Origin: a virus | DNA: 24,458 bases | Virus record (IMG/VR): IMGVR_UViG_3300010885_026425 | Span: 1-24,458 of that record | Direction: 5' to 3' (one strand) | Part shown: one piece after another, positions 8,282 to 8,978 of the stretch | Layout: each line of letters starts with the position of its first letter | Numbering within the stretch: position 1 is the first letter of the stretch | The notes under the pieces: model-generated | Seen by the model: only the letters and a program-made list of their open reading frames with translations | Told to the model about the DNA's origin: nothing | The model's database searches: none | Made by a program: the position numbers and the translations under genes

Positions 8282-8296
8282 GTAGTCTCCAAAAAT

Positions 8297-8330
8297 AATC
8301 TCTATGCCATATTATAACAGCATAGAGATT
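8297..8330 (-). terminator. 11-bp hairpin with T-run, enclosing a promoter -10 box
   Basis: Read on the - strand, AATCTCTATGC (8330-8320) and its exact complement GCATAGAGATT (8307-8297) enclose a 12-base loop and are followed, after one A, by five T's (8295-8291). This has the form of an intrinsic terminator for transcripts arriving from the 96-residue gene. The stem is AT-rich, so efficiency is uncertain. The -10 box of the ligase promoter lies in the loop, so the palindrome may also be an operator. Confidence 0.6.
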
Positions 8331-8339
8331 CTGTGTCAA
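8311..8339 (-). promoter_or_regulatory. Perfect-consensus sigma70 promoter for the ligase operon
   Basis: On the - strand TTGACA (8339-8334) is followed after exactly 17 bases by TATAAT (8316-8311). The -35 box begins immediately after the stop codon of the 96-residue gene. The expected start site (about 8304) lies in the second arm of the flanking hairpin, so RNA begun here cannot form that hairpin. GGAG at 8290-8287 gives the ribosome site. Confidence 0.9.
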
Positions 8340-8630
8340 TTACTTTTTGGCAATTTGTTTTGCTGCCTCAAAAATACGCATGGCATCTTGTAAACGAAAG
8401 TTATCCTGTCGATAATGCCAATCTTTTTTACGTTGAGCAGTATCTAATGCGTCCATTAATGCATATTTGTCTTTTAAATTATTTGTTTGCATTAGTAATG
8501 CTGACATATCTACAATATCTAAAGCATACTCTACCCATTTGTGTGTGCTATTAATTTTATCTTTTTGTAAAAAAACTAATTTGTTTGAACCCGTTTTTGC
8601 ATACTTTTGTTTGTAATTTGCTACATTCAT
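8340..8630 (-). CDS. Hypothetical protein, 96 aa, helical and lysine-rich
   Basis: No family recognised. The sequence is highly polar, Lys/Gln/Asp-rich and predicted mostly helical (for example NLKDKYALMDALDTAQRKKD, then FRLQDAMRIFEAAKQIAKK). No Cys, signal peptide or membrane segment is seen. It has its own near-consensus promoter (TTGACA-17-TAAAAT) and a TAGG ribosome site 7 bases before the ATG that lies within the arm of a 14-bp hairpin. It is therefore a separately controlled single gene, insulated from both neighbours by hairpins. Basic helical phage proteins of this size often bind nucleic acid or host proteins, but nothing here shows it. Confidence 0.8.
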   Translation of the reverse strand: MNVANYKQKYAKTGSNKLVFLQKDKINSTHKWVEYALDIVDMSALLMQTNNLKDKYALMDALDTAQRKKDWHYRQDNFRLQDAMRIFEAAKQIAKK

Positions 8631-8631
8631 A

Positions 8632-8666
8632 AAAATACCTACTTGTTGTGGTCAAGTAGGTATTTT
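8632..8666 (-). terminator. 14-bp perfect hairpin with T-run before the 96-aa gene
   Basis: AAAATACCTACTTG (8666-8653, - strand) pairs perfectly with CAAGTAGGTATTTT (8645-8632) across a 7-base loop. Arm two continues to a run of five T's that ends at the ATG (8630-8628). It would end transcripts from the DUF465-like gene and hide the TAGG ribosome site of the 96-residue gene in any read-through RNA. The + strand copy also has a T-run, so it may work in both directions. Confidence 0.75.
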
Positions 8667-8690
8667 AACACGATTTTGATTTTATGTCAA
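8662..8690 (-). promoter_or_regulatory. Near-consensus sigma70 promoter for the 96-aa gene
   Basis: TTGACA (8690-8685) and TAAAAT (8667-8662, 5 of 6 matches) are 17 bases apart on the - strand. The -35 box follows directly after the stop codon of the DUF465-like gene. The expected start near 8655 lies inside the first arm of the 14-bp hairpin, so RNA begun here lacks most of that arm. Confidence 0.82.
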
Positions 8691-8926: not shown

Positions 8927-8955
8927 TTGACAATACGTATTTAATGCCGTATAAT
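8927..8955 (+). promoter_or_regulatory. Perfect-consensus sigma70 promoter for the HNH gene
   Basis: TTGACA (8927-8932), 17 bases, TATAAT (8950-8955) on the + strand, with an expected start near 8962. The -10 box overlaps the left arm of a 6-bp palindrome (TAATGC 8952-8957, GCATTA 8964-8969), and another TAATGC lies at 8943-8948, so a repressor could bind here. No Shine-Dalgarno sequence lies between this start and the ATG at 8979. Confidence 0.88.
8938..8945 (-). promoter_or_regulatory. Candidate late promoter for the DUF465-like gene
   Basis: ATTAAATA on the - strand, one base from the T4 late consensus TATAAATA in its core, followed by C as at the HNH, gp25 and fibre sites. It overlaps the divergent sigma70 promoter of the HNH gene. 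No sigma70 promoter is apparent on this strand. Confidence 0.4.
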
Positions 8956-8966
8956 GCTTTTTAGCA

Positions 8967-8973
8967 TTAAATA
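8967..8973 (+). promoter_or_regulatory. Candidate late promoter directly at the HNH start codon
   Basis: TTAAATA followed by CATTT and then the ATG at 8979. The same arrangement (ATAAATA, CATGT, ATG) precedes gp25. By analogy with T4 late promoters, transcription would begin at or within a base or two of the ATG. Confidence 0.5.
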
Positions 8974-8978
8974 CATTT

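Follow-up and report, generated by a model that had tools for sequence, protein, structure and literature searches.

A G+C-rich stem is usual in intrinsic (Rho-independent) terminators, but it is not strictly required. In Escherichia coli, the frd terminator overlaps the ampC attenuator, the signals of two neighbouring genes sharing bases, and ampC transcripts pass through the frd terminator as an attenuator. Nested late promoters are found in genes e, soc, 49, I-TevI and segB of bacteriophage T4 and in mobE of Aeh1, in each case together with a hairpin that sequesters the ribosome-binding site (RBS) (PMC3014915, PMC2988022). The promoter of these genes lies in the 5' strand of the hairpin, and long upstream transcripts fold while the promoter-started ones do not (PMC3014915, PMC2988022). 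In Aeromonas phage 25, the very stable hairpin seg43(25) has its base directly upstream of an RBS that is not sequestered, and its effect was given as undetermined (PMC2988022).

The element described here occupies the 58 bases between a gene for a 96-aa protein and a DNA ligase gene of an uncultured phage. It is similar to an intrinsic terminator in having a stem-loop and then a U-run shortly past a stop codon. With the T4 genes it shares a hairpin that holds the promoter in its 5' strand and that long upstream transcripts, and not the promoter-started ones, are predicted to form, and with seg43(25) a very stable hairpin whose base is directly upstream of an unsequestered RBS. It is probable (roughly 60%) that a terminator and a promoter overlap in these bases. 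Nothing matching a promoter inside a terminator was found in the open-access literature, an absence that is weak evidence of novelty because only that literature was covered.

The window under analysis is the whole virus record, 24,458 bases long, in which a minus-strand block flanked by tail and baseplate genes holds the ligase gene, the 96-aa gene and a DUF465 gene, with an HNH gene oriented the opposite way. A DNA search of INPHARED found no near relative of the window among 50,697 annotated phage records, the ligase matches in that collection are all less than 60% identical, and Rfam returned no match. Homologues of the ligase were gathered from IMG/VR and their leaders then extracted; the relatives are metagenomic and the phages uncultured. 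Other ligase homologues (L267-L284, 45-51% identity) are found on marine alphaproteobacterial single-cell and metagenome contigs, and none of these contigs has a strong promoter of the sigma70 type where the ligase begins.

Table 1. Features of the ligase leader and of the related unit before the 96-aa gene, in window coordinates.
Feature	Position	Strand	Basis or detail
ATP-dependent DNA ligase gene, 438 aa	6965..8281	-	phrog_114 (E 9e-94); PF01068
96-aa gene upstream of the ligase	8340..8630	-	no family match
Stop codon TAA of the 96-aa gene, abutting the -35 box	8342-8340	-	sequence
-35 box TTGACA	8339-8334	-	promoter scan; present throughout the close relatives
5' arm of the inverted repeat, AATCTCTATGC, within the 17-nt promoter spacer	8330-8320	-	covariation
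-10 box TATAAT, forming the loop of the 14-pair hairpin in RNA	8316-8311	-	promoter scan and RNA fold
3' arm of the inverted repeat, GCATAGAGATT	8307-8297	-	covariation
Predicted start of transcription within the 3' arm, at the A of 8305 or of 8303	8303..8305	-	-10 box spacing
T-run where termination is presumed to occur: T5, in relatives 5-9 T	8291..8295	-	sequence and relatives
Shine-Dalgarno GGAG of the ligase gene	8290-8287	-	sequence
Ligase start codon ATG	8281	-	sequence
P2, related unit before the 96-aa gene	8631..8690	-	TTGACA 8690-8685; TAAAAT 8667-8662; arms 8666-8653 / 8645-8632

The first-pass annotation had described a perfect TTGACA-17-TATAAT promoter on the minus strand, whose -35 box touches the upstream stop codon and whose -10 box lies in the 12-base loop of a perfect 11-bp repeat followed by five T's, and the sequence agrees with it to the base. 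The arms AATCTCTATGC and GCATAGAGATT are 100% complementary over 11 bp around a 12-nt DNA loop, the 3' arm is followed by ATTTTT at 8296-8291 (minus strand), with an A preceding the T5, and the promoter is one of only three 12/12 sigma70-type promoters within the window.

In the proposed mechanism, RNA polymerase arriving from the upstream gene would copy both arms, and the read-through RNA would fold into a 14-pair hairpin with the U-run directly after it and be released. With the upstream RNA released at the U-run, the ligase would not be made from upstream messages. A polymerase that binds the sigma70-type promoter, on the other hand, would start about 6-8 nt past the -10 box, inside the second arm. 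The resulting RNA has no first arm and thus could not form the hairpin, and would continue into the ligase gene with its Shine-Dalgarno open. As read-through would be stopped and transcripts of the ligase's own promoter would escape, it is this promoter that would set the ligase level. The earlier placement of the start inside the second arm stands as a prediction, whereas the position proposed for it, near 8304, needs a slight shift: a purine start 6-8 nt past the -10 box would be at 8305 or 8303. The sequence, its conservation, the changes that preserve pairing, the T-run and the predicted difference in folding between the two kinds of RNA are shown; the start site, the termination efficiency, the timing and the physiological purpose are inferred.

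As RNA, the stem grows to 14 pairs, two of them G-U, with a loop that is exactly UAUAAU and an energy of -17.1 kcal/mol, and the surrounding 84 nt have a folding z of -2.9. In thermodynamic folding, the read-through RNA reaches -18.2 kcal/mol with the hairpin, and the promoter-started RNA has a weak structure of -3.8 elsewhere. Together with the comparative data below, these predictions support a hairpin specific to read-through RNA, which would most likely be an intrinsic terminator. The stable stem-loop, which is conserved with covariation, and the U-run immediately 3' of it (T5-T9 in 8/8 close leaders) are features of such terminators. Contrary to the usual form, however, the window stem is A+T-rich (G-C makes up 4/11 Watson-Crick pairs), a full promoter is nested in it, and the downstream RBS comes right after the U-run. 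The A+T-rich stem, with A-U pairs adjoining the U-run, speaks against this reading and suggests a terminator weaker than a classical one; a window T-run of the shortest class, with an A before it, also speaks against it. The difference from frd/ampC lies in the predicted inability of the promoter-started ligase RNA to form the hairpin.

The promoter (12/12), the stem and the T-run are all kept in 8/8 non-redundant leaders of the close clade, which was defined by ligases 75-98% identical that carry this very unit. The T-run measures 5, 9, 8, 7, 6, 5, 6 and 6 in these leaders, the window T5 being in the shortest class, and a run of at least five T's is found in 8/8 of them versus 0/63 leaders of a distant ligase set and 3/61 control promoters. 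All stem cells pair in the close relatives (116/116, 100%), and 2/13 stem pairs are altered on both sides: A-U, G-U and U-A are seen at the outer pair, and G-C, G-U and A-U at the ninth. Covariation amounts to 0.160, compared with 0.088 +/- 0.015 in shuffles, of which 0/500 came as high, and values between 0 and 0.064 after sliding, the variable pairs representing few independent evolutionary events. Matched spacer and leader also fold better than swapped ones in this clade (p 0.007). The gene upstream of the unit varies among the relatives and the unit remains with the ligase, to which it therefore belongs. The earlier proposal of a compact unit that ends one transcript and starts the next has thus been strengthened by the hairpin specific to read-through RNA and by the conserved T-run of the comparative data, while its termination step stands as a prediction.

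Similar units are found at other promoters. In P2, the TTGACA abuts a stop codon, the 5' arm of the hairpin starts within the -10 box, and a T-run reaches the ATG; the gene has no Shine-Dalgarno. P2 is kept in several relatives, and another (L013) lacks the hairpin and has an ordinary Shine-Dalgarno there. An independent nested unit of different sequence, CGCCTATAC / GGTATAGGC followed by T5, lies after a porin-like gene in L063 (10916-11870); this gene has a signal-peptide-like start and is itself on a phage contig. In the L230 ligase leader, a hairpin with T6 is found just past the -10 box. A stem-plus-T-run score of 22 is reached by 5/633 non-redundant promoters, three of the five being variants of the ligase unit, against a swap null with a mean of 1.1 and a maximum of 2 that is inflated, since swapping does not disrupt hairpins lying entirely 3' of the -10 box.

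A phage-wide hairpin rule was rejected, since most sigma70-type promoters of a 233-kb relative (G001) have no such hairpin. An 11-bp inverted repeat (8937-8947 / 8964-8974) also surrounds the -10 box of P3 (8927-8978, plus strand), a 12/12 promoter that precedes the HNH gene; P3 was discarded as a further case because the arms are not kept in relatives. Complementarity between a promoter spacer and the Shine-Dalgarno of the same gene occurs in some cases (L092:136, L095:10168, L093:13209; G001), for example TGGACTCTT / AGGAGTCCA.

The leaders of the distant set have the same gene and a similar promoter with no T-run following, so termination is not constant across the family. In 53/63 of them, the upstream gene runs past the -35 box, its stop codon ending 12 nt from where the box begins, and the box is thus also coding; in L038 (5226-5951) and these 53 leaders, the box encodes the final residues, LTY-stop, of a conserved ~245-aa gene that carries an HExxH-like motif and is without a match in Pfam. 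Because the distant leaders gave no one consensus structure in RNAalifold, matched folding was compared with swapped folding. Each spacer with its own leader has an ensemble energy of -12.86 kcal/mol, versus -11.20 kcal/mol when swapped (z 6.3, p 2e-5), and the effect is still seen among nine leaders less than 75% alike (p 2e-4). In the control promoters the effect is far smaller (z 2.6, p 0.007, N 61; Shine-Dalgarno p 0.08), a weak excess of spacer-leader pairing over swapped pairs. Shared ancestry is removed only partly in these permutation values. In the distant leaders, the stop codon of the upstream gene is at the 5' strand of the helix or inside it, so a ribosome ending there could open the helix, and translational coupling is possible as an added layer.

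These distant leaders bear directly on a rival in which the hairpin, as in T4 e and I-TevI, is a translation filter: placed before the Shine-Dalgarno, it would block ribosomes on unterminated read-through RNA, and promoter-started RNA would be translated. The nested-promoter principle is the same as in T4 (PMC3014915, PMC2988022), and the cost of opening the Shine-Dalgarno region in the distant clade is 5.86 kcal/mol versus 4.59 when swapped (p 2e-5), with values often of 7-14 in read-through RNA versus 2-4 in promoter-started RNA. Such folding kept without a T-run points to masking of the ribosome site in these relatives. In the window and its close relatives, however, the GGAG is outside the stem, its opening cost does not exceed that of shuffles or swaps, and a T-run that is useless for masking is kept 8/8, which makes the translation filter unlikely there. 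A stem of 14-17 pairs directly past a stop codon could also serve in RNA processing or in stabilising a 3' end, the read-through RNA being cut at the stem or protected by it with no true termination. This reading predicts neither the conserved T-run nor the geometry of the nested promoter, and is held to be quite improbable.

The first-pass annotation had also named an operator or a cruciform, where the dyad around the -10 box would bind a dimeric repressor or extrude in supercoiled DNA to control the promoter. A perfect dyad over the -10 box is classic operator geometry, and the fold is strong as single-stranded DNA too (z -5.8). Imperfections in a DNA dyad have no strand preference, while RNA tolerates G-U and not A-C. 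The imperfect stem cells of the close clade comprise 13 G-T and 0 A-C, and those of the distant clade 38 G-T versus 17 A-C (23 versus 11 over distinct dyads). No good second copy of the dyad was found in G001 (233 kb) or in G002 (128 kb), although a single-site autorepressor would be possible. Both the G-T bias and the lack of a good second copy favour an RNA element. In addition, the loop varies between 12 and 13 nt among close relatives, and a DNA site leaves the T-run unexplained, so this pair of alternatives is disfavoured and considered improbable. Lastly, an ordinary promoter might overlap an inverted repeat by chance, as the hairpin-free promoters that prevail in these phages and the similar, unconserved repeat at P3 would suggest. 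But the stem score was reached in only 3/20,000 shuffles with both hexamers fixed, and the unit is conserved with double-sided changes and a T-run kept 8/8, leaving chance very improbable.

The reading as overlapping terminator and promoter also places the element beside the T4 systems. Its predicted start, in the 3' arm, is 3' of the 5' strand of the hairpin, as in the T4 type. There, though, the Shine-Dalgarno or the AUG is in the helix, an arrangement supported in the distant clade only, while in the window the stem does not include the RBS and is followed by a T-run; the phage late promoter TATAAATA is replaced by a 12/12 sigma70-type match. The distant ligase leaders are closer to the T4 form than the window unit, which works like the T4 system on this reading, but is not filed as a member because it has no sequestered RBS and no late promoter. 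Across the family, one nested-promoter layout seems to have two outputs, termination in the close clade and ribosome-site masking in its sister clade. That the whole is a filter of transcript origin, with an interchangeable output built around the same nested host-type promoter, is a tentative generalisation, held at somewhat less than even odds.

One stretch of 58 bases probably closes one message and opens the next, in a layout that is kept by compensating mutations. If true, such an element would insulate a gene from its neighbour and start it with no protein beyond a host-type RNA polymerase, and could provide a design for compact insulated promoters. Predictors of terminators or of promoters, used alone, would misread these sites. 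The T4 nested-promoter principle, known for late genes, would be extended to a gene of DNA metabolism that has a host-type promoter, and the family would show how the output could shift from stopping transcription to blocking translation with the logic kept.
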